Origin: Candidatus Nanoarchaeia archaeon
Lineage (GTDB): Archaea; Nanobdellota; Nanobdellia; Woesearchaeales; JANQNE01
Reading direction: 5' to 3'
NCBI GenBank assembly: GCA_028279725.1
Contig: JANQNE010000010.1
Location: 1-64,000 of the forward strand
Length of the DNA stretch: 64,000 bases
Below the pieces are notes generated by a model, which was given only the letters and a program-made list of their open reading frames with translations, did not search any database and was not told the origin of the DNA. Below are positions 7,044 through 21,138 of this stretch, piece by piece; position 1 is the stretch's first letter; each line of letters starts with the position of its first letter. Made by a program: the position numbers and the translations under genes.

Positions 7044-7988
7044 ATGAAACACATAAATGCCATAAGGATACTACTTACTGAAAATTGTAATGGCAGTTGT
7101 TCTTTTTGCTTTAACAAAGATCTAAGGGAAAACAAAGATATGGATACCAATCAGGCAATTAAATTATTTGATAGATTAGCAATAGAAATTAAAAATTTAA
7201 AAATTATGGGGGGAGAACCCACAATTCATCCAGATTTTATTATGCTTTATGAACACACACAAAAAAGATTTAAATCTGTTTTTTTATTTACAAATGCACT
7301 CAACGATGTCATACTCAACATTAAGCCAAGAGAAGAAGACGCAATCACATACAATATAAGTTTCATAAATAAGAATTTCAATTTTAATAAAATTCTCCCA
7401 GACTATGATTTTGTAAGAAGTTTTGAGACTGTGGTGGGAACAAAAACAAATATTGATGATCTTCTATCAAAAATTAACTTCATAATAGGTAAATTTAATG
7501 AATTAAAAATAAAAAAAAGACCTAGGTTTAGCATAACCTTGAATTGCATGGAAAACATCTTCAAACATAAACAAATTTTAAATAGAAAATGGAGAAGATT
7601 AGTGGTCTCATTGAATGATATTGACCCAAAATTGGTTGATTTTGATCATTCAATCCCTGTCTGTTTTTGGACAAAAGAATCTATTGAACTATTCAAGAGA
7701 ACAGAATTACCAGACTCACTTTTTAGTACTTGCAGACGTGGGGATTATGGTTTAATAAACTCAGATTTTGAATTATTGTATTGTAACCAGCACCCGATAA
7801 AACTAGCCAACATCCTTGAATTATTAAACAAAAATTCATCAACTTTATTTTTTGATAAATTAAATACAATATTGTCCAAGGCATACATGGAAAAACTTAT
7901 TAAAAACCTAAACACCGAGGAATGTAAAAATTGCATGTATGCAATCACCCATTGCACAGGAGGGTGCTTCAAACACAAGTACCCATAA
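7044..7988 (+). CDS. Radical SAM protein with C-terminal Cys cluster (SPASM-like)
   Basis: A 314-residue radical SAM enzyme. C15-x3-C19-x2-C22 (CNGSCSFC) binds the SAM-cleaving 4Fe-4S cluster, and IMGGEPTIHPDF is the SAM-contacting GGEP motif. The C-terminal part has TCRRGDYGLINSDFELLYC and then CKNCMYAITHCTGGC, a twitch/SPASM-like auxiliary cluster region common in peptide-modifying enzymes. The substrate cannot be read from the sequence. It sits seven bases after rnp3 and within 3 kb of the His-rich putative precursor, so it may belong to the Hxs-like locus. Its central region is divergent. Confidence 0.8.
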   Translation: MKHINAIRILLTENCNGSCSFCFNKDLRENKDMDTNQAIKLFDRLAIEIKNLKIMGGEPTIHPDFIMLYEHTQKRFKSVFLFTNALNDVILNIKPREEDAITYNISFINKNFNFNKILPDYDFVRSFETVVGTKTNIDDLLSKINFIIGKFNELKIKKRPRFSITLNCMENIFKHKQILNRKWRRLVVSLNDIDPKLVDFDHSIPVCFWTKESIELFKRTELPDSLFSTCRRGDYGLINSDFELLYCNQHPIKLANILELLNKNSSTLFFDKLNTILSKAYMEKLIKNLNTEECKNCMYAITHCTGGCFKHKYP

Positions 7989-8030: not shown

Positions 8031-8384
8031 ATGCAAGAAAATACATGGAACAAGAAAATAATATTTTTATCATTTCTACTACTCTTGACAGGTTGTTCTA
8101 GTGAGACAGTAATTCTAGAAAATATATATGTGGGGGAGAATGTAATGGATGTTACAAATACATCAACACCACATCAAATCTATTTTACACTTGTAAATAA
8201 GGCAAGACAGGACGCACACTGTAAGGCAGAATTTAATTTAATTAATCTAGAAAATCAAACCAGAAAGATATATGATTTAGGCAGAATACCACAAAAATCA
8301 AAAAGGCCGACCAGAATTGATTTTGATATGCCTTTTGGGTTATCTGAATTTAACTTAACTCCAATCTGCAATTTTAATCAATAA
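8031..8384 (+). CDS. Small secreted lipoprotein, function unknown
   Basis: A 117-residue protein with a short charged N-terminus, a hydrophobic core (about 10-20) and a lipobox LLTGC (Cys22), so it is predicted to be exported and lipid-anchored through that cysteine. The mature part is about 95 residues, strand-rich, with two cysteines that could pair. I do not recognise a family. It lies between the first radical SAM gene and the Cys-rich membrane protein, each with its own TATA box, so a link to the Hxs-like locus is only positional. Confidence 0.6.
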   Translation: MQENTWNKKIIFLSFLLLLTGCSSETVILENIYVGENVMDVTNTSTPHQIYFTLVNKARQDAHCKAEFNLINLENQTRKIYDLGRIPQKSKRPTRIDFDMPFGLSEFNLTPICNFNQ

Positions 8385-8385
8385 G

Positions 8386-8393
8386 TTTATAAA
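8386..8393 (+). promoter_or_regulatory. TATA box for the GTG-start membrane protein
   Basis: TTTATAAA lies 36 bases before the GTG start at 8430. A Shine-Dalgarno AGAGGTG follows at about 8418-8424, so this gene, unlike its neighbours, has a short leader. Confidence 0.5.
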
Positions 8394-8429
8394 TAAAAAG
8401 CCCCATTTTTAACTAAAAGAGGTGTTAGA

Positions 8430-9665
8430 GTGTCTGAAATCTCAAACTACATAAAAAAAGAGCTCGAGAAAGGATTTTCTCTAAAAAATATAAAGAAGAA
8501 ACTATCGGAAGCAGGCCATGATATTTTAGAGATAGAGAAAGAGGCAGTAGCATTTGAGAAAAAAGAAGAGAAGAAAATTACTAATTTCTTAAAAAAACAT
8601 ACATTAATAGCCACAGTTGCAATACTCTTGATAATTTTAGTAGTTATTTTCATCAAAACAAAGCCGACAGCATTAGATTATGCAAAAAACCTCTCATTAG
8701 ACCAAATAAATGAGGAAGAAAAAATAACAGGACAACAACAAAAATTGATATCTCAATCAAAGATAGATGAATGTAATTTAGTTGAAGGGATGGATGAAAA
8801 AAATCTCTGTTTCGCACTTGCAGCAAGAGAGACTGATGATACTCTATTATGTGATCATATCGAAGAAATAGGAACTGACTTTAAACAATATGGCTGCATA
8901 AACAAGTTATATTGGGATAGCGAGTGTGATTATATTTCCTACATGGATGGAGATGAAAAGAAATGCAGGTTAGATAAGGCAATAAGGGAAAGAGATATAG
9001 CACAATGTGCAAGCAAGGAGTGCCTAGATATTATAACAAACTTGGCCTTAGATGAAAAAGATTATTCAATATGCTCAGAAAATAAAAAATGTATCCTAGC
9101 ATATGTAAAGAAATACAATGAGGAAGAAGCATGCCAAATCTTAGATGAACCAGGAGAATGTATTACATTAATTTTAGAAAATTCAATGGAAATTTCAAAG
9201 TGTTTGTTGGTCAATCTGGATGAAAAGATAGATTCTGGAGAAGAAGGGTGTATAGAAGCATTTTTAAAATCCATCTTGGTTTTAGTAAACTTCCCCCCAG
9301 CAGGAACTCCTAAAGAGGGATTGGGGGATTTAGTCTGCGATGTTTTTAAAACAACAAAAGATACGCCGAATTTTGATTGTGCGTCTATCCAAGAGATAGT
9401 GGAAAGAGGGGATGTGGAGGGAACACTAACTCCAACAACAAGACCAATCCATTTCTTGGTTTTAGCGGATTACACAAATAATGATTGTTCAAGTTTAACA
9501 GGAAATGATAAAACATTTTGTGAAGCTCTAGTGGCTTCAGATACATCAATTTGCGAGTCTTTAACTTCTTATAAAGAAGAATGCTCGGTTCTTGTTGATT
9601 TAAGGGCCAGAAATAATCCCTTCTACTCAGAACATAAATCCGATCCAGGGTTTCAAATGAAATAA
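8430..9665 (+). CDS. Membrane protein with Cys-rich extracellular domain
   Basis: A 411-residue protein starting with GTG, placed by AGAGGTG a few bases upstream. Residues 1-45 resemble the short helical module (KELEKGFSLKNIKKKLSEAGHD) often found at the cytoplasmic N-terminus of DPANN membrane proteins. A single transmembrane helix follows at about 57-76. The remaining ~330 residues contain spaced cysteines in a repeating helical pattern (for example CxxA…D..LC), which probably form extracellular disulfide-linked repeats. The fold and function are not recognised. It lies just upstream of the His-rich putative precursor. Confidence 0.7.
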   Translation: MSEISNYIKKELEKGFSLKNIKKKLSEAGHDILEIEKEAVAFEKKEEKKITNFLKKHTLIATVAILLIILVVIFIKTKPTALDYAKNLSLDQINEEEKITGQQQKLISQSKIDECNLVEGMDEKNLCFALAARETDDTLLCDHIEEIGTDFKQYGCINKLYWDSECDYISYMDGDEKKCRLDKAIRERDIAQCASKECLDIITNLALDEKDYSICSENKKCILAYVKKYNEEEACQILDEPGECITLILENSMEISKCLLVNLDEKIDSGEEGCIEAFLKSILVLVNFPPAGTPKEGLGDLVCDVFKTTKDTPNFDCASIQEIVERGDVEGTLTPTTRPIHFLVLADYTNNDCSSLTGNDKTFCEALVASDTSICESLTSYKEECSVLVDLRARNNPFYSEHKSDPGFQMK

Positions 9666-9673
9666 CCAAAAGC

Positions 9674-9681
9674 TTTATAAA
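9674..9681 (+). promoter_or_regulatory. TATA box for the His-X-Ser precursor gene
   Basis: TTTATAAA ends exactly 22 bases before the ATG at 9704, and there is no Shine-Dalgarno. This predicts a leaderless transcript. Confidence 0.6.
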
Positions 9682-9703
9682 ACTCAAAATCACAAATAAG
9701 AAA

Positions 9704-10189
9704 ATGCAAAAAAAAATCCCACAACTCAAAAAAAAGATATCTGGGTTTTTATCTAATGAACAGGGAACAATCTCAAAAAAATCAATAATGAAATTAGGTT
9801 TAATCACTTCTCTTCTATCAACTTCTACAGAAGATGTATCTGGGGGATCTGAAGAGTGCCATAACAGTGACGGAACAAATTGTGATCACCATGAAAGTTC
9901 TTCAGTAACACTCTCAAGCAGCACATATAATTTAGTAGATGCTGGGAACCCACCATCTGCCCACGCCAGTGATTCTTGCTCAGGTACACATTCAAATTCT
10001 TGGGCTGATGATTGTAGTTGTCATGCCAATGCCTCCACAGCAGACCACGCCAGCGATTCGAGCGGACATCACACCAATGATCTGGAGGTTGCTAAAAAAG
10101 GTACAGGTATAAAAGCAACCCATGAACATAATGTGGCGCATGCTTCACAACTCACAGGTACACCTAGCTCTCATTGTAGTTTATCATAG
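9704..10189 (+). CDS. HxsA-like His/Ser/Cys-rich putative RiPP precursor
   Basis: A 161-residue protein of unusual composition. Residues 1-45 are a Lys-rich helical leader (KISGFLSNEQGTISKKSIMK then LGLITSLLST). The remainder is dominated by His, Ser, Asp, Ala and Cys. It contains six His-X-Ser triplets, at His53, 63, 87, 115, 146 and 157, plus near-matches such as HSN and HAN, and six cysteines (52, 60, 92, 104, 106, 158). Repeated His-X-Ser is the signature of HxsA proteins, which are proposed substrates of the HxsB/HxsC radical SAM maturases. HxsD-like and HxsB-like genes lie immediately downstream. It has its own promoter. The modification and the mature product are unknown. Metal binding by the His/Cys core is an alternative role. 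Confidence 0.7.
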   Translation: MQKKIPQLKKKISGFLSNEQGTISKKSIMKLGLITSLLSTSTEDVSGGSEECHNSDGTNCDHHESSSVTLSSSTYNLVDAGNPPSAHASDSCSGTHSNSWADDCSCHANASTADHASDSSGHHTNDLEVAKKGTGIKATHEHNVAHASQLTGTPSSHCSLS

Positions 10190-10201
10190 ACTAACAAAAA
10201 A

Positions 10202-10209
10202 TTTAAATA
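10202..10209 (+). promoter_or_regulatory. TATA box that fixes the hxsD start
   Basis: TTTAAATA ends 22 bases before the ATG at 10232. The in-frame TTG at 10229 would break the 22-base spacing seen at other genes, so the ATG is preferred. Confidence 0.55.
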
Positions 10210-10231
10210 AAAGATGAAGTTCTATTGATTG

Positions 10232-10687
10232 ATGGAAGATCTAAATAATCTTGGGAATCTAAAGATAAACAAAGCAGAAAATTACATATTTTTCTCTGTA
10301 AATCCATCAATATTTTCTTTAGAAGTAGTATATTCAGCAGCATATATTATGATAGACAAGGCATATATTTTTTTAGATGGGAATCCGAAAAGATCAATAG
10401 ATATTGAGATAAGAGCAAAGAAAGAAAATCAAGATCTAAAGAGATTAGCCTTGGAATTTAACAACGAACTAATCAATTATGCCAACTATAAACAACAAAA
10501 CAAGGAAAATAAAGAGATAAGGGAGATGATCCTACAAAGAGCTTTACAGACAAATTTAATCACTCCAGAATACACCGAAGGCAATATCAAGGATCCAAAA
10601 AACATCAAAGAGGCCTGGTCAGAAGATAAAAGACCAAAGAAGACCAAAAATGCAAATAAAAGAAAAACCAATAATAATCAAGCTTAA
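10232..10687 (+). CDS. hxsD: HxsD-like protein of the His-Xaa-Ser system
   Basis: About 151 residues. Residues 15-105 match the HxsD family as I remember it: a strand FFSVNPSIFSLEVVYSAAY, a Tyr/Leu-rich strand, an Ile/Glu strand, then RLALEFNNELINYANY and IREMILQRALQTN, which correspond to the family's EFxNELLNDYxLRE-type segment. HxsD is a small partner protein always found with HxsB and HxsC; its biochemical role is not established. The C-terminal ~40 residues are a Lys/Asn-rich low-complexity tail, and the last 38 bases overlap the next gene in another frame. No signal peptide is present, so it acts in the cytoplasm. Confidence 0.75.
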   Translation: MEDLNNLGNLKINKAENYIFFSVNPSIFSLEVVYSAAYIMIDKAYIFLDGNPKRSIDIEIRAKKENQDLKRLALEFNNELINYANYKQQNKENKEIREMILQRALQTNLITPEYTEGNIKDPKNIKEAWSEDKRPKKTKNANKRKTNNNQA

Positions 10688-10868
10688 TCCTTCTTTTTAT
10701 TCTAAAGGGGCAATATTACAGACTATTAAAGATTTTAGTTCTGTCTGCTCCTCTGATTTAGAGAAAAAAAGCAAATTTCTCATAACAATCAACCCAAAAA
10801 AAGGAATAGACAAAAATGAACTCGCACATGAATTCTGTAATTATTGTCTTGGTTTGATGAATCAGTAA
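10650..10868 (+). CDS. Short second HxsD-like protein
   Basis: A 72-residue protein starting inside the tail of the preceding HxsD-like gene. Its outline IIIKLNPSFYSKGAILQTIKDFSSVC … FLITINPKKGIDKNELAHEFCNYCLGLM parallels the HxsD core (strand–helix–strand, then EFxNYxLxL) without the C-terminal helix. I read it as a diverged HxsD paralogue that may pair with the longer one as a heterodimer, which is inference. Position and overlap imply co-transcription. Because the gene is short, an unrelated small protein cannot be excluded. Confidence 0.6.
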   Translation: MQIKEKPIIIKLNPSFYSKGAILQTIKDFSSVCSSDLEKKSKFLITINPKKGIDKNELAHEFCNYCLGLMNQ

Positions 10869-10936
10869 TTAATAATATTTCTTTATTTTAATAGTCTCCA
10901 AATAGAGACAAAATGATAATACACCAAAAAGAAAAT

Positions 10937-10944
10937 TTTATATT
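10937..10944 (+). promoter_or_regulatory. TATA box for the B12-type radical SAM gene
   Basis: TTTATATT lies 29 bases before the ATG at 10974. It overlaps the alternative TTG start at 10944, which argues against that start. Just upstream a small hairpin GTCTC-N6-GAGAC (10894-10909) follows a T-rich stretch and may help end the previous transcript. Confidence 0.45.
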
Positions 10945-10973
10945 TGCTGAAAAAACCTATCTCAGTTAAGATA

Positions 10974-12299
10974 ATGAAAAACATAACCTTATTTTGGCCA
11001 AATCTGATATTTAAAGAAAAAGGCAGAATCATCCCTTCTTTATTTTTAGCAAAATACTACGGGTTGCTGAAAGATGAATTCAATGTCTCCTGTGTAGAGA
11101 CATTTATGAGGGGGGGAATAAACAAAGCAGACTTTCTCCAAAACAAAAAAGAAATATCCAGAAAATTAGAATCAGACATAAGAAAGATAGAATCAACAAA
11201 TCCAGACATACTTTGCATTAGTAGCTGGACCTTGCTAAACTTGCCATACATATTGGAATTTTCAAGACACTTCAAAAAAAGAAACAAAGATGTAAAAATT
11301 ATCTTGGGAGGGGATGGTCCAACAAATTCACCGAAAAATCTTTCTACTTTAACAAAACATATAGATTTTTTTATAGTTGGCTGCGGAGAGCATGCAGTCT
11401 GCAAATTAATTAAAGATATAGTTAATAAGAAAAATATAGGCCAGAACATAATCCACATGAGGAATAGATTCCCCCCAATAAGTACAATTATCCCGGATTA
11501 TTCTGGAACCTTAGATGAGAACAGACATAAGATAATCCCTTTAGAAGGATCAACAGGGTGCACAAACAACTGCACATTTTGTTCCTCACAGAAGTGGATC
11601 AAAGGTCCCTATAATAAAGGAGTTGATACAATCATCAAAGAATTAAAACAATACATATCCAATTATAATATTAATAGATTTTTCTTTATAGACAATAATT
11701 TTACAGGCAACCCAAAGAACGCAGAGTTATTTTGTAGAATGCTTAAAAAAAACAAATTAGATATAAATTGGAGCTGCAGCTCAAGAACAGACACAATATC
11801 TCCTAGATTATTGAACTTGATGCATGATTCAGGATGCTATTCAATTTTCTATGGTATAGAAAGTCTAAATAAAAATACACTAAAATTAACAAAAAAAACA
11901 AAAGACCCTTCAAGATATATAAAGAAATCAAAAGAGATGATTAATTATTCAAGAGATCTCCTAGCTACTAAAGTGGAAGGAATTATTGGTTTTCCATGGG
12001 AGTCAAAAAAAGATATGTTAGAAACTGTGAGTTTTTTCAGGAATAACTGGAGCGATATTGCGTATATCCATACATTAATTGCAATCCCCGGATCAAAAAT
12101 ATGGAGATCATATTTAAATAAAGAATTAGAATTATTTGGATCAAAGATCCTCCACAATAATTTATTCTTTGAAAAATACAAGAACTTACCTTGGCTGGTT
12201 CCAACAGCCTGGAGAGTAAAAAACAAAAGAATGAATAATAAGGATCTTACTGATTTTGTCGAACACAACCAGGAAGTAAAAACCAAAGAATTTATATAA
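10974..12299 (+). CDS. B12-binding-type radical SAM enzyme
   Basis: About 441 residues. The N-terminal ~150 residues have the Rossmann-like outline of cobalamin-binding domains (LFWPN…IPSLFLAKYYG, then DILCISSWTLLNLPYI and KIILGGDGPTNSP, FFIVGCGEHA). The lower ligand motif DxHxxG is not visible, which is common in radical SAM relatives. The radical SAM core starts with C196-x3-C200-x2-C203 (CTNNCTFC) and continues through FFFIDNNFTGN, YGIESLNKNTL and EGIIGFPWES. Such enzymes often methylate unactivated carbons or modify peptides. Position between hxsD and hxsB suggests it tailors the His-rich precursor, which is inference. The TATA box supports the ATG at 10974 rather than the upstream TTG. 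Confidence 0.75.
   Translation: MKNITLFWPNLIFKEKGRIIPSLFLAKYYGLLKDEFNVSCVETFMRGGINKADFLQNKKEISRKLESDIRKIESTNPDILCISSWTLLNLPYILEFSRHFKKRNKDVKIILGGDGPTNSPKNLSTLTKHIDFFIVGCGEHAVCKLIKDIVNKKNIGQNIIHMRNRFPPISTIIPDYSGTLDENRHKIIPLEGSTGCTNNCTFCSSQKWIKGPYNKGVDTIIKELKQYISNYNINRFFFIDNNFTGNPKNAELFCRMLKKNKLDINWSCSSRTDTISPRLLNLMHDSGCYSIFYGIESLNKNTLKLTKKTKDPSRYIKKSKEMINYSRDLLATKVEGIIGFPWESKKDMLETVSFFRNNWSDIAYIHTLIAIPGSKIWRSYLNKELELFGSKILHNNLFFEKYKNLPWLVPTAWRVKNKRMNNKDLTDFVEHNQEVKTKEFI
12291..12298 (+). promoter_or_regulatory. TATA box for hxsB inside the end of the upstream gene
   Basis: TTTATATA, located in the last codons of the previous gene, ends exactly 22 bases before the hxsB ATG at 12321. There is no ribosome-binding site, so a leaderless start is predicted. 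Confidence 0.55.
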
Positions 12300-12320
12300 C
12301 TCCGGGTAGGAAATATCAAG

Positions 12321-13730
12321 ATGAAACCACTAGATTTTAAGGGTAAAGACTATATATTAAACAATATTAGATTTAAGACATTAAGGGGGAAATATCTATT
12401 AACCACAGACACAGGGGCATGGATATTATTAAATAAGAGCGCATATTTAAATTTAAAAAACAATAAAATAAAAAAGCCATTGTTCAATCTTCTGGAAGAA
12501 AAAGGCATAATAATAACCAAAAATAATATTGAAAAAGTAGTTTCTGATCAAAGGGAGAGGCTAGATTTTTTATTTAGAGGAGCATCATTGCATATAATTC
12601 TCCCAACATTAAGATGCAACCATAAATGTGTTTATTGCCACAGCGCAGCGCAGGATGCAGACAAAAAAAAGTTTGATATGGATAAAAAAACTATAGACAA
12701 GACCTTAGATTTTATTTTTCAAACACCTGCAAAAGCAATAACTATTGAGTTTCAAGGTGGGGATGCGTTATTAAGAGCAGATTCATTCAAATACACAGTC
12801 CAAAAGGCCAAAAAGCTAAATAAAAAATTCAACAAGGATGTTTATTTTGCTTTAGTAACAAATCTTACGATAATGGATGAAAAAATAATGGATTTCTTGA
12901 AAAAAGAAAAAGTTAGGATATGCACATCTTTGGATGGGCCAAAAAAAATACATGATTTGAATAGGATATATACAGGCCACACATCATCATATGATGCGGT
13001 AACAAAAAATTTAAGACTACTCAAAAAAAACAAAATCCCTGTGTCTACACTAATGGTAACAACAAAACACAGTTTACCTCATTGGAAAGGAATAATTGAT
13101 GAATATGCCAAGTGGGGGTTCACTAGCATACAGCTAAAATATCTCAATAAATTAGGATTTGCAAAGAACACATGGGGGGAGATTGGTTACACTGTAGAAG
13201 AGTTTCTTGTTTTTTGGAAGAAAGCAGCAGACTACATATTAGAATTAAACAAAAAAGGAACTTATATTGAGGAGAGATATATCAAAATAATATTGATGAA
13301 AATCTTAAGTAAGAAGGACCCTGCATTTTTAGATTTGAGAAGTCCCTGCGGCATGGTTATTGGTCAGATGGCATACAACCATAATGGGGATATCTATTCA
13401 TGTGATGAAGGAAGAAACTTTGAATTATTTAAGTTGGGCAATGTAAAAAAAGACACATACAAAGGTATTTTATCATCGGAGAAATCACAACAATTAATTT
13501 CATCTTCAATAAATGATATACTGGTATGTGATAATTGTATCTACAAGCCATATTGCGGTCATTGTCCTGTGATGAATTATGCCGAGGAAGGAAATTTAAT
13601 CCCAAAATTACCTTCGAATTCAAAATGCAGATATCATAAATTTGCATTTGATTATGTTTTTGAAAAATTACTATTTGATAAGGAAGCAAGAAAAATATTT
13701 TTTAGTTGGATGAAGAAGAAAACAAAATGA
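12321..13730 (+). CDS. hxsB: HxsB-family His-Xaa-Ser radical SAM maturase
   Basis: A 469-residue protein, the usual HxsB length. Residues 10-80 form the family's N-terminal domain (FKTLRGKYLLTTDTGAWILL). The radical SAM cluster is C99-x3-C103-x2-C106 (CNHKCVYC). EFQGGDALL replaces the common GGEP motif, and VTNLTIMDEK and ICTSLDGPKKIHDLNR follow as in HxsB. The C-terminus has RSPCGMVIGQMAYNHNGDIYSC and YKPYCGHCPVMNYAEEG, a SPASM-type region for auxiliary iron–sulfur clusters, ending in CRYHKFAFDYVF. HxsB acts with HxsC and HxsD on His-X-Ser repeat proteins; the reaction is not known to me. It is the best-supported member of the locus. The next gene starts in its stop codon (ATGA). Confidence 0.88.
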   Translation: MKPLDFKGKDYILNNIRFKTLRGKYLLTTDTGAWILLNKSAYLNLKNNKIKKPLFNLLEEKGIIITKNNIEKVVSDQRERLDFLFRGASLHIILPTLRCNHKCVYCHSAAQDADKKKFDMDKKTIDKTLDFIFQTPAKAITIEFQGGDALLRADSFKYTVQKAKKLNKKFNKDVYFALVTNLTIMDEKIMDFLKKEKVRICTSLDGPKKIHDLNRIYTGHTSSYDAVTKNLRLLKKNKIPVSTLMVTTKHSLPHWKGIIDEYAKWGFTSIQLKYLNKLGFAKNTWGEIGYTVEEFLVFWKKAADYILELNKKGTYIEERYIKIILMKILSKKDPAFLDLRSPCGMVIGQMAYNHNGDIYSCDEGRNFELFKLGNVKKDTYKGILSSEKSQQLISSSINDILVCDNCIYKPYCGHCPVMNYAEEGNLIPKLPSNSKCRYHKFAFDYVFEKLLFDKEARKIFFSWMKKKTK

Positions 13731-15643
13731 CATATCTAGATTTAAAGTTAGGTTATGGTTGCAACAACAATTGCTTACATTGCGTAATCGCAGATCAAAG
13801 GGATACATGCAGATCAAAGGGTGTGGATACAGATAGGTCAACAGAAGAATGTAAAAAAGAATTGGTAGATAGTAAATCCAGAGGTGCAACAGAAGTAACT
13901 TTCACAGGGGGAGAACCAACAATAAGAGAAGACATATTTGAACTTATATATTTTGCAAAAAACCTAGGATATTCAATAAACATGCAGACAAATGGAAGGA
14001 TGTTTTATTATGAAGAGTTTACAAAAGCCATCTCAAAAAATTTGATTAGATCATTTGTAATAGCATTACACGGACCAAATGAAAAGACACATGATAAGAT
14101 AACAGAAGCAAAGGGAAGCTTCAAGCAGACTGTAGAGGGAATAAAAAATTTAATTTCATTAAAACAAACAGTTAGAGGAAAGATGGTCCTCTCAAAAATA
14201 AACTACAGACAACTTAAAGAAACAATAACACTCATGATAGAATTAGGCATTAAATCTATCTTTGTTGCATTCCCTCACGCACAAGGAAACGCAAGAAAAA
14301 ATTTTGATGTTATTGTCCCAAAATACTCTGAAATAATCAACTATGTGAAAGATTCAATAAAATTTTGTAAGAAAAAAGGCATAGAGATTTACTTTGAGGC
14401 TATTCCTTTTTGCTTTATGACAGGATATGAAGATCATGTATCAGAATTAAGAGACATCGGAATAAACTATAAAGAATTAAAACAGCTTGGTGAAAATAAG
14501 AAGAATTGGGCAGAAATAAGAAAAAAAATAAAAAGAAAATTCCCACAATGTTCATTTTGTGACTACACTCAATTATGTGAAGGCCCTTGGATGGAATATC
14601 CTGCGGCATTTGGAAATAAAGAATTTAGACCAGTCTACAATAAAAAGATAGATGAGATAAAAATAGAGCTCACTTATGGCTGCAATAGCCATTGTTATTT
14701 CTGTCAAAATAAGACAATTCCCACAGAAAAAAAACAACTAACAACAAAACAAATATTAAACCTACTAGATGATATAAAGAGGAATGACATAAAAAAAGTA
14801 AGATTCACAGGAGGAGAACCAACACTAAGAAAAGACCTCTTAGAGATCTTAGCATACGCCAAGAAACTAGGATTAATTGTAAAGCTTAACACAAATGGAA
14901 GATTTAACATTGATTATGCAAAGAAACTATCAAATCACATAGATGTGATACTTTTTTCTGTTCATGGAGACAATAAAAAATCAAACAAACAGATAACAAA
15001 AACACAGGATTTTGATAACAAAATTAAAATAATAAAATTTTTCTCAAGATCCAAGGTTCACACAGCATGCAACACCATAATGAACAAAGAAACGGTAAAA
15101 AATTTAAACAATTTTTTAAGATTAATGGACAAATTAAAGGTCCAAGATTGGTTTTTTTCACCCCAAGTACCAGTTCCTGGGGAAAAGAACTATTACTTAA
15201 AAAATAAAGAGATAGAGCTTATAGTGGAAAAGTTAATCAAGTATAACAAAAAACAAAAAACAACATATTCCATAGGAAAATGTGCAACAATTCCATTCTG
15301 CTCTTGCGATCCTAGAAAGATTTTAGATCTATATTCAGGAAAAGAAGCCGGGGGAAAGTTCTGTGGCCCAAACAACAGCCTAGTAGTTTCTCCAAAAGGA
15401 GATGTTAGGTTTTGTTACTCAATAAACAAAATGCTTGGGAATACACTAAAAAATAGCCTAAAAGATATCTTAGGCAAAAAACTACTAAACAAAAATCTAA
15501 GCCCTGCAGAATGCAAAGGTTGTTTGATGGAATTTATATGCAGAGGGGGCTGCAGGTTCACTGCAGAATCAATAAATGGAAATTTAACTTCATCACATCC
15601 ATTATCACAAAAAGAGAGATATAAAGATTTATTATTTCAATAA
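13727..15643 (+). CDS. Tandem radical SAM protein (two radical SAM modules)
   Basis: A 638-residue protein carrying two complete radical SAM modules. Module 1 has C12-x3-C16-x2-C19 (CNNNCLHC), FTGGEPTIRED and ALHGPNEKTHD. Module 2 has C319-x3-C323-x2-C326 (CNSHCYFC), FTGGEPTLRKD and SVHGDNKKSN. Module 1 ends with its own Cys group (CSFCDYTQLC) and module 2 with a SPASM-like CGPNNS…FC…CKGCLMEFICRGGC. Similarity of the halves points to an internal duplication and fusion. Neither half has the N-terminal domain of canonical HxsC. The ATG at 13727 overlaps the hxsB stop by four bases; the upstream TTG at 13706 is less likely. It is probably translated with hxsB and modifies the same substrate. Confidence 0.82.
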   Translation: MTYLDLKLGYGCNNNCLHCVIADQRDTCRSKGVDTDRSTEECKKELVDSKSRGATEVTFTGGEPTIREDIFELIYFAKNLGYSINMQTNGRMFYYEEFTKAISKNLIRSFVIALHGPNEKTHDKITEAKGSFKQTVEGIKNLISLKQTVRGKMVLSKINYRQLKETITLMIELGIKSIFVAFPHAQGNARKNFDVIVPKYSEIINYVKDSIKFCKKKGIEIYFEAIPFCFMTGYEDHVSELRDIGINYKELKQLGENKKNWAEIRKKIKRKFPQCSFCDYTQLCEGPWMEYPAAFGNKEFRPVYNKKIDEIKIELTYGCNSHCYFCQNKTIPTEKKQLTTKQILNLLDDIKRNDIKKVRFTGGEPTLRKDLLEILAYAKKLGLIVKLNTNGRFNIDYAKKLSNHIDVILFSVHGDNKKSNKQITKTQDFDNKIKIIKFFSRSKVHTACNTIMNKETVKNLNNFLRLMDKLKVQDWFFSPQVPVPGEKNYYLKNKEIELIVEKLIKYNKKQKTTYSIGKCATIPFCSCDPRKILDLYSGKEAGGKFCGPNNSLVVSPKGDVRFCYSINKMLGNTLKNSLKDILGKKLLNKNLSPAECKGCLMEFICRGGCRFTAESINGNLTSSHPLSQKERYKDLLFQ

Positions 15644-15644
15644 A

Positions 15645-17762
15645 ATGCAAAATGACCCGTCGATAGGACCAAAAACATTTCATCTACAATATCATATAAC
15701 TGATAACTGCAATCTAGATTGCAGCCATTGTTATGTGGGCCATAGAAGAAAAAAAGAACTAAGCACAGAACAGGCTTTAAAATTGATAGACAGGTACGCA
15801 GATATGTTAGATTTCTGGAAAATATCAGATAAAAAAAGCAAGATAACTTTCACAGGAGGAGAACCTTTACTTAGAAAGGATATTTTCAAGCTCATAAAGA
15901 GATGCAGACAACATGGCATAACTTCTGGTTTAATGACCAACGGAACAACCCTATCGGAAAACATAATAGAGAAATTAAAGGATTCCGGGTTAAAAAACAT
16001 ACAGCTGAGTTTAGAAGGGCTAAAAGATACAAATGATTTAATCAGAGGTGCAGGGGTTTTTGATTCCATAAGACAGGCAATAAAATTACTTAAAAAACAC
16101 AGATTCAAGGTAATAATCTCAACAACCATCCACAAGGGGAATTACAGATCTCTTTCAAGACTTATAGAATTTTGTCTTAAAGAGAAAGTAGATTCCGTAG
16201 GCTTTAGGAGATTAGTTCCATTAGGCAATGCGATAGAGATAAAGGACCAACTATTATCACCTCTGGAATTGAGAGACACATATTCAAAATTATCAGATTA
16301 CAAAACTAAATTAGAAAGTAAATTATCTGTTTCTCTTTGTTGTGAGGGATCACTCTTAGCAATAGAAGACAAAGATCACTTTAATCATTCACATTGTTCT
16401 GCAGGGATATCTAGCTACACAATACTCCCGGACGGAGAGATCATACCTTGCGCGACACTCCCAATACATCTAGGAAATGTATTATCTGATAATTTAATCT
16501 GTCTGTGGTACAGTTCAAGAGAATTATGGAAGTTAAGGAATATAAATAATTTAGATAAAAGATGCAGTAGCTGTCACACCATAAAAACATGCAAAGGGGG
16601 GGCCAAGTGTATAGCACATTCTTATTTTGGAGGCATATCTCATCCAGACCCTCAGTGCTGGTCGCTTTACAAGGAGCTTCCAAAGAAAAAAATAAAACTT
16701 CCAAATAAAAAAACCAATAAGCTAAAAATTGACCCTTCTCTTTATACATTATCCAATGGAAGATTAAAAAGACAAACTGAAGGAATTATAGTATCTGAAG
16801 AATTAATAAAACAAGATATAGATAAGGTGTTATCTAATAAATCAAAATTAGAAAAAATAAAGAAAATATTGTCGGAGAAATATGATCTAAAAGATATCTC
16901 TTCTATAAGGAAATTACATGAACATAATGCATGCATAATCGAAACAAGAACAAAGAAATATTTATTTAAAGAAAGGGAGGGGAAGATTGAACTAAATAAC
17001 TATGTTTTAGAATTTCTAAAAGGAGTAAAGATACCAAAAATAATAAAGACAGATAGAAACGCATGTTTAGATTATAGAGGAAAGAATTACATACTTTCAG
17101 AATACATTGAAAGCGAAAGAAAATACACTTTTGATGATTTGGAAAAGGTTACAGATATCTTAATCACATTACATCAAAATTCCAGAGATTTACCAAAAAC
17201 AAGAAAAGATATATTCTTTGCGATAAAGGAAAAATTAAAATATATATCTAGAGAGATAACTAAATCTCCAAACATAGATAAAGCTAAGAAAAATGTGTTA
17301 TTAAAACATACCGACGACTTAGAAAAAAAATTGAATAAAAAAACAATACATGGGATGGAACATTTTATCATACATGGGGATTTCAAGAAGACGAACTTAT
17401 TATTCTCAAAAAATGAAATTTATTTATGTGATTTTGACAGAACCAGACATCACCTAAAAATCTATGATTTAGCAATAGCTATTTGTTCGTTGTGCAGAAA
17501 AGATCCAGGTAACATACTGGAATTCGAACAACTAATAAGATTATTTGAGTTGTATTCAAAAAAAATAAACATAAACAAAACAGAGAGAGAACACATTTTA
17601 GATTTCTTAAGATTTTATATCCTGGAGCAGATAACATCAATCAACAACTTATCAAAACAGAAGAAGTTATCTATAATACTAAATAACTTAAGCCTGCTCA
17701 ACCAGATAGATAAAAATGAAGATAATTTGAGATTATTATTCAGGACAATAAATAACTCATAG
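15645..17762 (+). CDS. Radical SAM/SPASM–APH-type kinase fusion
   Basis: A 705-residue two-part protein. Residues 1-350 are a radical SAM/SPASM enzyme: C22-x3-C26-x2-C29 (CNLDCSHC), FTGGEPLLRKD, SLEGLKDTND and a C-terminal CSSCHTIKTCKGGAKC cluster region. After a linker, residues ~400-700 look like an aminoglycoside-phosphotransferase/choline-kinase fold. HGDFKKTN (H577-G-D579 … N584) is the Brenner catalytic loop and DFD (596-598) binds metal. The radical SAM half resembles peptide maturases, and the kinase half could phosphorylate the peptide or a small molecule. I know of no standard family with this fusion. It begins one base after the previous stop (TAA-a-ATG). The 3' end overlaps the convergent prepilin peptidase gene by six bases. 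Confidence 0.82.
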   Translation: MQNDPSIGPKTFHLQYHITDNCNLDCSHCYVGHRRKKELSTEQALKLIDRYADMLDFWKISDKKSKITFTGGEPLLRKDIFKLIKRCRQHGITSGLMTNGTTLSENIIEKLKDSGLKNIQLSLEGLKDTNDLIRGAGVFDSIRQAIKLLKKHRFKVIISTTIHKGNYRSLSRLIEFCLKEKVDSVGFRRLVPLGNAIEIKDQLLSPLELRDTYSKLSDYKTKLESKLSVSLCCEGSLLAIEDKDHFNHSHCSAGISSYTILPDGEIIPCATLPIHLGNVLSDNLICLWYSSRELWKLRNINNLDKRCSSCHTIKTCKGGAKCIAHSYFGGISHPDPQCWSLYKELPKKKIKLPNKKTNKLKIDPSLYTLSNGRLKRQTEGIIVSEELIKQDIDKVLSNKSKLEKIKKILSEKYDLKDISSIRKLHEHNACIIETRTKKYLFKEREGKIELNNYVLEFLKGVKIPKIIKTDRNACLDYRGKNYILSEYIESERKYTFDDLEKVTDILITLHQNSRDLPKTRKDIFFAIKEKLKYISREITKSPNIDKAKKNVLLKHTDDLEKKLNKKTIHGMEHFIIHGDFKKTNLLFSKNEIYLCDFDRTRHHLKIYDLAIAICSLCRKDPGNILEFEQLIRLFELYSKKININKTEREHILDFLRFYILEQITSINNLSKQKKLSIILNNLSLLNQIDKNEDNLRLLFRTINNS

Positions 17763-18800
17763 TAGGTTCAAGCTCCCCTTCAATATTAAAGTAAGTAAAA
17801 CTCCCAGAAACAAAAATAACGCAAAAGGAACCTCTTGCTGTACAAAAACATATTTGTTCTTTATTTTCTTGCGTTTGTACAGATCCTTTATTTTTGCGAT
17901 GTCTTCTTCAGTAAGACCCTCCACCTTTAAATTATTTACATAATAACCTTTCCTGAGGTTTATCCTCACTTTTTCTATGTACTTTTTCTCAACAAGAACC
18001 ATCCCAGGTTTAAGTTTCCTTACATTGATCTTAGTTTGGAATAATGAACCAAGATCATTTATCATAAATATAAATAACCCATAGGCTGTAGTCATTAATA
18101 TGAACTCCCTAAGGAACCCAGCAGTCAGAATATATTCTCTGTTAAAGAACACCCTGGACAGGGACAGAACAACCATGATTAAGTTTATTTCATTAGGCCA
18201 GATTTTTCTTAATAAGTGTTTTATTGCCATTATTGCAAACATATTCAGTACTATATTTGTCCTTACGCCAAAATATACAAACAAATAGTGGGTTATCCAT
18301 GATATGCTGAATATTGTCAGCAGATAATTTCCAATTCTCTTTAAGTTAAAAGAATTCTTGATAACTTCAACTTTTTGCTCTTTGCTTGTCTTTACAAGCA
18401 AATAGATAACAAGAACAACGAACAGAGGAACAAAGGTATTTATCAATATCCCTAATGGATGAAAACTTGTAGAATTTTTTTGATAAATTGAGAGTGGAAT
18501 CAAAGAAACATATGCAGTAAATAGTTTGGCATCTCCTGCAGACCACAGACCAAACATATAAAGAAAGACCCCGATAACAAAACTGAAAAAAACAAATGTG
18601 CCTAATTTTACCCCATATTCTACCTCAGTGATCCCCAAGGAGAAAAGAATAACATGCATCACAAGTGATACTATCAGCGCAGTTATGATCCATTTATTTC
18701 TTATCTTCTTAGTTTTGATATCTTGATAACTAGTCACAATGCCTAACAATACAATAAATGGAAACATAAACCACAACAGATTCATGGCTAGACAATACAT
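17757..18800 (-). CDS. A24 family prepilin/preflagellin peptidase
   Basis: A 347-residue polytopic membrane protein. The first catalytic Asp lies in SYQDIKTKKIRNKWI (D27), the usual position after the first transmembrane helix. The second is in LWSAGDAKLF (D90), the GxGD-type motif of aspartic class III signal peptidases. Six or more hydrophobic helices are seen, plus a soluble segment at about 250-320 before a last helix. The enzyme cleaves class III signal peptides after the charged residue, and the window holds eighteen such substrates, so it is the likely processing enzyme. Two ATGs are possible (18800 and 18785). The first lies 29 bases from a TATA box shared with the divergent archaeosortase gene. 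Confidence 0.85.
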   Translation of the reverse strand: MYCLAMNLLWFMFPFIVLLGIVTSYQDIKTKKIRNKWIITALIVSLVMHVILFSLGITEVEYGVKLGTFVFFSFVIGVFLYMFGLWSAGDAKLFTAYVSLIPLSIYQKNSTSFHPLGILINTFVPLFVVLVIYLLVKTSKEQKVEVIKNSFNLKRIGNYLLTIFSISWITHYLFVYFGVRTNIVLNMFAIMAIKHLLRKIWPNEINLIMVVLSLSRVFFNREYILTAGFLREFILMTTAYGLFIFMINDLGSLFQTKINVRKLKPGMVLVEKKYIEKVRINLRKGYYVNNLKVEGLTEEDIAKIKDLYKRKKIKNKYVFVQQEVPFALFLFLGVLLTLILKGSLNLL

Positions 18801-18859: not shown

Positions 18860-20326
18860 ATGAAAAAGATGGGTTTAATTAAAAAATACTTGTTATTCAC
18901 ATTCTCTTCATTAATGTCAACTTCTTTGCTTATGTTTTTTTCCATCAGATCAAAAACCACATACGGATTTTCTTCTATCTTTTACTTACAAAAACCGATA
19001 ATAATATTTATTGCTTTTATAGGGGTTGTATTTTTATTAATCCGACATAAGACTAAAACCACAAACAGAACAGTAAACGCCCCCTTGTTGTTGATTTCTT
19101 TATTACTGTTCTCTCTTTCATTCTATATTTATGGAGACATAAATAAAGTCTATAATGAAGGAGTATCAATAAAATCCAGTCAACTGATAGATTCTCCCGG
19201 AAAAATAGATCTGGATAGTTCATCCCTTCTCTCTATTCCTTTATTGACAGGAATCAGACAATCTTATGATTCTTTTATTTTTGGAGAGGGAAAAATAAAG
19301 AAAATATTAGATATGGGGGAGATCCAGGAAGAAACTATTTTGACTTTTCACACATTATGGCAAGATGCGCCCTTATCGAAAGACCCAGATTTAATTTTCC
19401 AATCAATGGACGACAACCAATTAAATAAAGATCTAAAAGTATTCTTATCAATAAACAACAGATCCTTTGATATCTCAGATTCTTACAAAGATCTTCCAGA
19501 AGATAAAGGTAAATGGATAAGCATAAAGATTCCAGGAAATAACTTTTTAGATGGAAAAAATGAAATAATAATCTCAACAAAGAATAACTCAGACCTCTTA
19601 AGGTTTTCCGGACAGGTGGTATTCATGGAAGGAAATACATTCAAATTTGATAATGAGGGTTTCTGGGAAACAGAAATCACAGAGATGGCATTGTTCTTAA
19701 ATCGGGAAAATCCATTTTGGTTTTCTTTATTATTCAAATTTTCTTTCATATTGAAGATAGCCGCACTTATTCTATTTTTATTTGCTTTTTTCAACAAAAA
19801 AATAATAACAAAAATAATAAAAAACAATAAGAAAGAAATCATATACTCCATACTGGCTTTATTGATCCTATATTACCTGTCTTTATTTATACAATCCCAA
19901 TGGCAGTTCCTTTCAAGATTTGTTGCCTATTCTATCTATTTTTTACTCAAGATTTCATTCTTGAATCCATCAGTGAATATTAATGATTTGTCTGCCCCAT
20001 TAGTTGGTCTAAATAATTTCTCTGTAGAGATAGCAGATGTTTGTTCTGGAGTAGAAAGCCTGATCTATTTTTTAGTAGCTTATTCTTTGCTTTTGTTGAT
20101 CCATTGGAAACACATAAACTTCAATAAAGCATTAGTTCTTTTCATCCCCGGAATCATTGGCGCAGCTCTGTTGAACATCTTTAGAATTTATTTTTTAATC
20201 TTGATCGGTTCTTTCTTTTCAAAACAGTTAGCATTAAACTTATTTCATTCTGTTTCTGGAATGCTTATTTTCATAATATATTTCATAATATTCTGGCCTT
20301 TAGCTTTAAAATACATAGAAAAATAA
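18860..20326 (+). CDS. Archaeosortase/exosortase family protein
   Basis: A 488-residue multi-pass membrane protein. The C-terminal ~190 residues carry the exosortase/archaeosortase catalytic triad: Cys395 in ADVCSGVESL, Arg442 in NIFRIYF, and His463 in NLFHSVSGM. All lie near membrane helices as in the family. The N-terminal half has two or three helices and an extracytoplasmic domain (about 90-280), longer than in typical family members. Archaeosortases cut C-terminal PEF/PGF-type sorting signals and transfer the protein to an anchor. The convergent next gene encodes a protein with just such a C-terminus, with no spacer between the two stop codons, so the pair is probably dedicated. The promoter suggests a leaderless mRNA. 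Confidence 0.85.
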   Translation: MKKMGLIKKYLLFTFSSLMSTSLLMFFSIRSKTTYGFSSIFYLQKPIIIFIAFIGVVFLLIRHKTKTTNRTVNAPLLLISLLLFSLSFYIYGDINKVYNEGVSIKSSQLIDSPGKIDLDSSSLLSIPLLTGIRQSYDSFIFGEGKIKKILDMGEIQEETILTFHTLWQDAPLSKDPDLIFQSMDDNQLNKDLKVFLSINNRSFDISDSYKDLPEDKGKWISIKIPGNNFLDGKNEIIISTKNNSDLLRFSGQVVFMEGNTFKFDNEGFWETEITEMALFLNRENPFWFSLLFKFSFILKIAALILFLFAFFNKKIITKIIKNNKKEIIYSILALLILYYLSLFIQSQWQFLSRFVAYSIYFLLKISFLNPSVNINDLSAPLVGLNNFSVEIADVCSGVESLIYFLVAYSLLLLIHWKHINFNKALVLFIPGIIGAALLNIFRIYFLILIGSFFSKQLALNLFHSVSGMLIFIIYFIIFWPLALKYIEK

Positions 20327-21115
20327 TTACTTTCTTTTATACAATACAGTTGGTATCAAAACAGCACCAACCAAAGCGATCATCGCAGTCATAAGAGAAA
20401 ATTCAGGTATTTCATTCGCATCCTTACATGTCATATCATCTATACAATTCTCAGTATATTCAATTTCCTGATCTATCCCACCTATACAAGTCATATCATC
20501 ATCATTTCCTGGAGAACAGGTACAACCATCAATATCATTGCAAGTTGAGCCATCCACTAAAGCTGTTTTTGCCCCATCCATACAACCCCCACCATGAGTT
20601 GTTTCACTATTGCAGGGCCTACTTGTGTACACTTTCCCCCCGTGTGTTGTACTTGAACTCGCAGGCAGACAATAATTACCTGAAGCCCTTCTATAAACTA
20701 TATTGCCACAGAGACAATAAACAGAACTCCCCCCATAAGTTGTAGCTCGGTTAGGGTATGTTGATGAAGTTTCCCCACAGAGCTCTACAGTTGTAGTTCC
20801 GCAAGTAATAAATAAATCACTACTACAAATAATGGCATTACCTTCACACTTCTGTCCAGGATTACATCCTGCAGTGTTTTGATTATCACTTTCACTACAC
20901 GAATCAACAACCTCATAAGTATGCACCGCATCACTTGTACAGATATCTCTCCATTGCTGGGTATTGCCATCATAAGAATACACACAATCAGCAGTTTTAG
21001 TTTCTTTACAGATCTTGGCAGTAGCTTCAGTTGGAGCCACAACACCAATAACACTTACACTACTCAATACAAAAATAATTAAAACAAGAATTATCATAAC
21101 TCCTCTTTTTTTCAT
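20327..21115 (-). CDS. Cys-rich secreted protein with PEF-type sorting signal
   Basis: About 262 residues. The N-terminus KKRGVMIILVLIIFVLSSVSVIGV is a signal peptide. The mature part is rich in Cys, Thr, Ser and Gly with many short loops, so it is probably disulfide-stabilised. The C-terminus is a short NEIPEFS motif, a hydrophobic helix and a terminal YKRK. That tripartite layout is the PEF-CTERM archaeosortase signal, and the archaeosortase gene lies tail to tail with it. I place the start at the ATG at 21115: a TTTAAATA box lies 23 bases upstream, so the TTG at 21133 is unlikely. The domain function of the mature part is not recognised. Confidence 0.8.
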   Translation of the reverse strand: MKKRGVMIILVLIIFVLSSVSVIGVVAPTEATAKICKETKTADCVYSYDGNTQQWRDICTSDAVHTYEVVDSCSESDNQNTAGCNPGQKCEGNAIICSSDLFITCGTTTVELCGETSSTYPNRATTYGGSSVYCLCGNIVYRRASGNYCLPASSSTTHGGKVYTSRPCNSETTHGGGCMDGAKTALVDGSTCNDIDGCTCSPGNDDDMTCIGGIDQEIEYTENCIDDMTCKDANEIPEFSLMTAMIALVGAVLIPTVLYKRK

Positions 21116-21138
21116 ATTGCTTTTAATTTTCAATTGTA

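Follow-up and report, generated by a model that had tools for sequence, protein, structure and literature searches.

We analysed a 64,000-nucleotide stretch of DNA (the window; positions 1 to 64,000, forward strand, of contig JANQNE010000010.1 in assembly GCA_028279725.1) from a Candidatus Nanoarchaeia archaeon, assigned to a genome of 1.42 Mb in 12 contigs. It holds a gene cluster of the His-Xaa-Ser (Hxs) type, with the radical S-adenosylmethionine (radical SAM) enzyme HxsB and several further radical SAM proteins. A sequence-only reading had proposed an archaeal Hxs-type locus at 9704-17762, and the genes that it named are all present where it placed them. Because the archaeal markers TATA-binding protein, MCM and RNase P component 3 are encoded in the same window, and HxsB and HxsD pass their equivalog cut-offs, that assignment holds. 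The interval itself was too short: the listed genes are real, but the cassette runs past 17762, as far as 18800, and an adjacent core gene for an A24 prepilin-type peptidase had been overlooked. The cassette and its immediate features are as follows (scores in bits).

7044..7988, + strand: stand-alone radical SAM protein, upstream (PF04055 47.3); without an equivalog; accessory, membership uncertain
9669..9683, + strand: archaeal TATA-box-like element AAGCTTTATAAA, about 25 nucleotides 5′ of the hxsA ATG, spotted by eye
9704..10189, + strand: hxsA, precursor-like protein of 161 residues with a leader (residues 1-21), a short hydrophobic stretch and a degenerate His-Xaa-Ser region
9704..9766, + strand: conserved leader MQKKIPQLKKKISGFLSNEQG of HxsA, with the predicted A24 cut after G21 (codon 9764-9766)
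10229..10687, + strand: hxsD (TIGR03976 61.9, cut-off 50); probable start ATG 10232
10650..10868, + strand: HxsD-like paralogue, HxsD_rel (NF038315 62.2, cut-off 41)
10944..12299, + strand: B12-binding radical SAM protein (PF04055 66.2, PF02310 37.2); probable start ATG 10974
12321..13730, + strand: hxsB, radical SAM/SPASM maturase (TIGR03978 448.5, cut-off 370; PF04055 and SPASM)
13706..15643, + strand: tandem radical SAM protein with two PF04055 stretches and one SPASM; probable start ATG 13727
15645..17762, + strand: fusion of radical SAM/SPASM with an APH-fold kinase (PF04055 93.5, SPASM 30.8, APH 30.0 with cut-off 23.2)
17757..18800, - strand: A24 prepilin-type peptidase of EppA-like size class (PF01478 33.5, cut-off 26.5; archaeal C-terminal domain Arc_PepC)

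Against the Hxs family models, HxsB, HxsD and the HxsD-like protein were recovered above cut-off, whereas the HxsA and HxsC models stayed below theirs; the B12, tandem, kinase-fusion and upstream genes were borne out by their Pfam domains. The His-rich open reading frame that had been put forward as HxsA reaches only 23.3 bits against NF038309 (HxsA3, cut-off 65), and it carries 6 HxS motifs in its 161 residues where relatives show regular repeats. Because its leader aligns with theirs (51 bits to a leader hidden Markov model), we nevertheless place it, on that alignment, in the archaeal HxsA family, of which 29/30 members match HxsA3 and 17/30 match HxsA4 (NF038313).

The archaeal Hxs core and its A24 peptidase

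For comparison we used 60 relatives from the same order and 371 genomes of the phylum. HxsB scored above cut-off in 17 of the former and 32 of the latter, and two HxsB-bearing genomes fall outside the order, within the same class. Profiles built from the window proteins served to annotate the neighbourhoods of about 45 archaeal HxsB genes, and at 44 loci every gene within 4.5 kb of HxsB was clustered with no preset gene list. This neighbourhood comparison, which the sequence-only reading had suggested, returned a recurrent set: HxsD (41 loci), A24 (35), HxsD-like (32) and HxsA (28), followed by other radical SAM proteins (26), B12 radical SAM proteins (15) and RNase P p30 (10). Radical SAM families apart, no unrelated family exceeds 10 of the 44 loci. 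These counts define an archaeal core of A24, HxsD, HxsD-like, HxsB and HxsA.

The A24 gene of the window lies just beyond the interval first proposed. Nearly every genome carries one housekeeping A24 peptidase of about 290 residues; a second, longer type (median 360 residues) is found almost only in HxsB-bearing genomes, near HxsB. In the tree these Hxs-linked proteins form one clade, split from housekeeping A24 at a 100/100 branch, and they keep the catalytic Asp pair (D27 conserved in more than 90%, GD90 invariant). A profile for this type is positive in 38 of the 371 genomes, including 30 of the 34 with HxsB (8 A24 genomes lack HxsB; Fisher p ~1e-32, kinship ignored) and, equally, 30 of the 34 with an HxsA leader (8 lack the leader; Fisher p ~1e-32, kinship again ignored). 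Co-inheritance is matched by physical linkage: where A24 and HxsB share a contig the gap is mostly below 1 kb (20/26), and the A24 and leader genes share a contig in 27/27 genomes compared. By sequence and position, we take this second type of A24 to be a dedicated, core member of the archaeal Hxs cassette.

The nearest named family is EppA, itself a larger, second, dedicated A24 peptidase (PMC4371748, PMC4858521). With EppA and FlaK/PibD the window protein shares its Pfam family, the conserved Asp pair and the archaeal C-terminal domain; unlike them, it is linked to Hxs genes rather than pilus genes, and it scores 29.9 bits against the EppA model NF053826, whose cut-off of 450 is not reached. 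A scan of viral contigs by a single peptide pattern gave no match for the Hxs-type A24. At locus L026 (11195-13858, - strand), an Hxs-type A24 is contained in an 887-residue protein with a long extra C-terminal region.

Several genomes depart from the standard arrangement. The peptidase gene directly adjoins an hxsA on a contig without hxsB in G014, and a His/Cys-repeat gene away from hxsB in G313. In G139 and G202, HxsD is fused to an HxsA leader with no HxsB nearby, and the same type of A24 is present; G022 (L129, L145) has no HxsB and encodes HxsA-leader proteins with HGTHSTH repeats, together with radical SAM proteins and an Hxs-type A24. The HxsB-like protein of G211 and G229 lacks the CX3CX2C motif, and the full cassette of G152 is cut by a contig end.

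Fusions of an HxsD domain to an HxsA leader were seen at L138 (19061-19642, - strand) and L140 (13392-15341, - strand), both in genomes that keep an Hxs-type A24; in the L140 protein, the leader is followed by what appears by eye to be a Hint (hedgehog/intein-type) domain. The HxsB-like proteins at L141 (7563-8831, - strand) and L142 (6402-7628, + strand) lack CX3CX2C and other stretches and keep the N-terminal RRE-like region described below. Radical SAM catalysis has apparently been lost from these two proteins, in A24-HxsD-HxsD-like cassettes that otherwise look intact.

Hxs systems derive from bacterial genome analysis (Haft and Basu, as cited by PMC9062424). We compared the archaeal loci with ten bacterial plasmid Hxs loci (from Nostoc, Calothrix, Adhaeribacter, Hymenobacter, Novosphingobium, Methylobacter, Aeromonas, Paraburkholderia, Mesorhizobium and Rhizobium), in which HxsD-HxsB-HxsC follow one another and HxsA lies on one side or the other. 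The two groups are alike in their HxsB and HxsD, which score above the cut-offs of the same equivalog models, and in the His-Xaa-Ser-rich target encoded alongside. The archaeal locus differs in having no canonical HxsC, an extra HxsD paralogue, an N-terminal leader on HxsA, a dedicated A24 and optional radical SAM arrays. Neither the Hxs-type A24 nor the archaeal HxsA leader was found in the ten plasmid loci, and in the HxsB tree the archaeal and the ten-locus bacterial proteins lie on opposite sides of one branch. Canonical HxsC, which had been thought missing, is indeed so: nothing in the window or in the genomes of the 60 relatives exceeds the cut-off of TIGR03977. Because that cut-off is not reached, we classify the window locus, from its gene content, as an Hxs variant and not as canonical HxsABCD. 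Given the NCBIfam models HxsA3, HxsA4, HxsC4 and HxsD-like, parts of such variants had already come to the notice of curators. The window HxsD-like protein passes its model and archaeal HxsA proteins match HxsA3 and HxsA4, whereas the window HxsA and HxsC4-like sequences score well under the cut-offs, and the NCBIfam matches mention no peptidase. In the open-access literature we found no publication naming HxsA3, HxsA4 or HxsC4, which is weak evidence of absence.

The HxsA leader and its proposed recognition

Archaeal HxsA proteins begin with the consensus PKIKKKIxxFLxxE(E/D)GKISKxxLxKxG, followed by the hydrophobic stretch, a middle motif (H-x-N-x-L ... T-H-x-H) and a His-rich tail, often a regular HGSHGSH and commonly with an aromatic residue at the end. 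Archaeal prepilins are cut ahead of the hydrophobic domain, after a G, A or S at position -1 that is preceded by a charged residue at -2 (PMC4371748). The HxsA leader appears to fit this rule: the first conserved Gly position, our proposed -1, is G or A in 36/36 HxsA proteins and the residue at -2 is charged in 31/36. A giant HxsA-like protein of 926 residues with THDNCHTESHSNCHSNC-type repeats is encoded at L041 (12314-15094, + strand), with a leader match upstream in the same open frame.

For leader binding, the structural models point tentatively to HxsB. Its N-terminal 100 residues were modelled as three strands and three helices (beta3-alpha3) with a predicted local distance difference test score (pLDDT) of 87, and residues 14-86 or thereabouts resemble the recognition element (RRE) of enzymes that mature ribosomally synthesized and post-translationally modified peptides (RiPPs). 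The top structural matches are mostly RRE-bearing RiPP enzymes: CteB, McbB, ThcOx (cyanobactin oxidase), the PbtF RRE and TbiB1. HxsD was also considered as the RRE and rejected: the matches to its AlphaFold2 model (pLDDT 85) are weak, with RNA polymerase Rpb11/Rpo11 the best (E ~0.01), and no RRE is among them. Because the HxsD model matched no RRE, we moved the recognition role to HxsB. HxsD and the HxsD-like protein are homologous by hhalign (probability 97.9%, E 3.5e-13), and such paralogy is compatible with a heterodimer. The weak likeness of HxsD to the Rpb11/Rpo11 dimerisation fold would suit an HxsD/HxsD-like heterodimer (window 10229-10868).

Proposed maturation route and competing explanations

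Our preferred reading, which we hold to be reasonably probable, is that in this archaeal Hxs variant precursor maturation is tied to a membrane aspartic peptidase of its own, from the A24 family. In newly made HxsA, a conserved basic leader whose last residues are E(E/D)G would precede a hydrophobic segment and then a His-rich repeat region. The RRE-like N-terminus of HxsB, aided by the HxsD/HxsD-like pair, would bind the leader, as structure prediction and conservation suggest. Judging from the enzyme families, HxsB would then act in the cytosol on the His/Ser/Cys-rich region, where the accessory HxsC4-like/tandem, B12 and radical SAM-kinase enzymes of this genome may introduce further modifications. 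The hydrophobic segment would insert the modified HxsA into the membrane or carry it across, and the A24 peptidase would cleave behind the conserved Gly/Ala and so remove the leader at the cytosolic face, in the manner of a prepilin peptidase, a step suggested by gene association and site conservation. After leader removal, the product would be displayed or exported.

To our knowledge, Hxs systems, recognized from their sequences since 2011, have had no established product, location or route of processing. The archaeal version offers such a route in testable form, with the protease named, the residue at the predicted cut kept in 36/36 precursors and a minimal set of five genes. If this is confirmed, radical SAM peptides would gain a leader protease of a new class, and peptide modification in small-genome archaea would be connected with the prepilin pathway. 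The closest parallels are radical SAM RiPP pathways, with their CteB-type RRE maturases and with membrane proteases such as EpeP, the M50 protease of the epipeptide system. The archaeal Hxs cluster resembles them in a SPASM radical SAM enzyme with a predicted RRE-like N-terminus and in a membrane-embedded protease, and differs in that this protease is of the aspartic A24 type. In a 2023 review of RiPP leader proteases the terms prepilin, aspartic and signal peptidase never occur (PMC10885120), and in the open-access literature we found no paper joining a prepilin peptidase with RiPP and radical SAM, again weak evidence of absence.

A number of observations weigh against this proposal. Both the cleavage of HxsA by A24 and the modification of HxsA are steps that we infer. 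The window protein itself is a poor example: its site reads SNEQG/TISK, with an uncharged Q at -2, and its hydrophobic segment is the weakest among all copies (mean 1.15 over 15 residues). More generally, the distance from the proposed cut to the hydrophobic core, about 10 residues, is longer than in usual prepilins; another conserved Gly, G32, which begins that core, could be the cut site instead; and downstream of the hydrophobic segment many archaeal HxsA proteins carry an AxA-like motif where an ordinary signal peptidase might cleave. The RRE likeness of HxsB is by ranking only, with no match significant alone (best E 0.09). The A24 co-occurrence p values were computed without phylogenetic correction, and there are exceptions to the association in both directions: HxsB is present and Hxs-type A24 not detected in G041 and G127, and in G270 the A24 is present with neither HxsB nor leader detected.

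To a more specific form of the proposal we give about an even chance. Here the precursor leader would be prepilin-like and cut by the dedicated A24, the modified His-rich proteins would be placed on the surface or released by a pilin-type route, and the display module would be able to run without radical chemistry. The last element is suggested because A24, HxsD and the leader persist in lineages where HxsB has lost its radical SAM cysteines or is missing.

A refinement compatible with the A24 route is that modified HxsA is a pilin-like subunit, keeping its hydrophobic segment after the cut and forming a surface filament or coat, perhaps with a role in metal binding or cell contact. After A24 processing the mature protein normally retains its hydrophobic domain (PMC4858521), secretion-ATPase genes occur elsewhere in the genome, and the repeats can reach great length, as in the L041 protein. 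We hold this possibility only tentatively, since neither an assembly ATPase nor a platform protein was seen among the recurrent neighbours at the 44 loci, and since the hydrophobic segment, besides being short, is only moderately hydrophobic.

The accessory radical SAM enzymes raise a separate issue. The sequence-only reading had counted five radical SAM proteins with six modules here and called the number exceptional. The count is right (within 10.7 kb, and 6/21 of the radical SAM matches genome-wide), whereas archaeal Hxs loci as a group carry between 1 (HxsB alone) and 9 radical SAM genes, so the number is not out of the ordinary. It had also proposed that other radical SAM modules replace HxsC. 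The comparison does not support this, because many archaeal loci have HxsB as their sole radical SAM enzyme, and the minimal archaeal system thus has no second one. Given the variation from 1 to 9 genes, we read the five proteins of the window as core HxsB plus optional tailoring enzymes, not HxsC replacements. What comes nearest to HxsC at the locus is the N-terminal half of the tandem protein, apparently a distant HxsC/HxsC4 relative: this first half matches HxsC4 at full length, with scores below both cut-offs (146 bits to NF038332, 108 to TIGR03977 with cut-off 267.9), and the second half is radical SAM/SPASM. Its group has 17 members, the others 37-53% identical to that of the window. The B12 radical SAM protein falls under every NCBIfam equivalog cut-off.

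These accessory genes (7044, B12, tandem and kinase fusion) might instead belong to one or more separate peptide or cofactor pathways clustered by chance with the Hxs core. They are missing from minimal loci, the set varies between genomes, and relatives carry many further radical SAM genes on other contigs. We find this explanation doubtful in view of the single-domain HxsC4-like genes that adjoin hxsB, directly downstream, in more than 12 loci, an arrangement shared by the window, where the tandem gene start (ATG 13727) overlaps the hxsB stop (ATGA), and of the rank of the radical SAM families as the most frequent neighbours after the core.

APH-fold kinases act mostly on small molecules. 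We consider it unlikely that the kinase domain of the fusion adds phosphate to the His/Ser-rich core of HxsA as further tailoring, although the domain is fused to radical SAM/SPASM in the window and a stand-alone homologue adjoins a radical SAM gene at another locus; its APH score is low (30 bits), and among solved kinases amicoumacin kinase is the closest (E 0.006). At that locus, L034 (12938-14747, + strand), the homologue overlaps the radical SAM gene, mirroring the window fusion.

Still less probable is an ordinary Hxs system, in which HxsB modifies HxsA, plain Sec export is followed by signal peptidase cleavage at AxA, and A24 is a neighbour serving other pilin-like substrates: bacterial HxsA proteins, where examined, do begin like plain signal peptides, and the AxA-like motifs noted above would suit it, but the A24 clade, distinct from housekeeping A24, is nearly confined to genomes with HxsB or an HxsA leader, the peptidase gene remains beside hxsA where hxsB lies elsewhere, and the N-terminal extension bearing the G/A site is missing from those bacterial proteins.

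Other genes around the cassette

Two further genes lie between the upstream radical SAM gene and hxsA.

8031..8384, + strand: small lipoprotein-like protein with no family match; 192 bits in L116, where it also occurs with a Cys-rich membrane protein
8430..9665, + strand: membrane-anchored Cys-rich protein adjoining hxsA, with no Pfam or NCBIfam match above cut-off; homologues in L035, L110 and L116

Membrane-anchored Cys-rich proteins directly adjoin hxsA in the window (8031-9665, + strand) and at L110 (5345-6610), L116 (11405-12645), L026 (8004-8762) and L032 (14675-16389); they could possibly be partner, anchor or immunity proteins.

Two other sets of neighbours were considered as system members and set aside. 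RPP30 of the RNase P p30/TtcA pair is near only 10/44 loci, in what looks like an old gene order. An archaeosortase-family protein (18860-20326, + strand) has no homologue at the other loci; its own neighbour (20327-21133, - strand) looks secreted, with a C-terminal EIPEFSLMTAMIALVGAVLIPTVLYKRK sorting-like tail. Farther downstream, two very long open reading frames on the + strand, 21346-29742 and 31999-46809, encode 2798 and 4936 residues, and the shorter product is Cys-rich and resembles a secreted surface protein.

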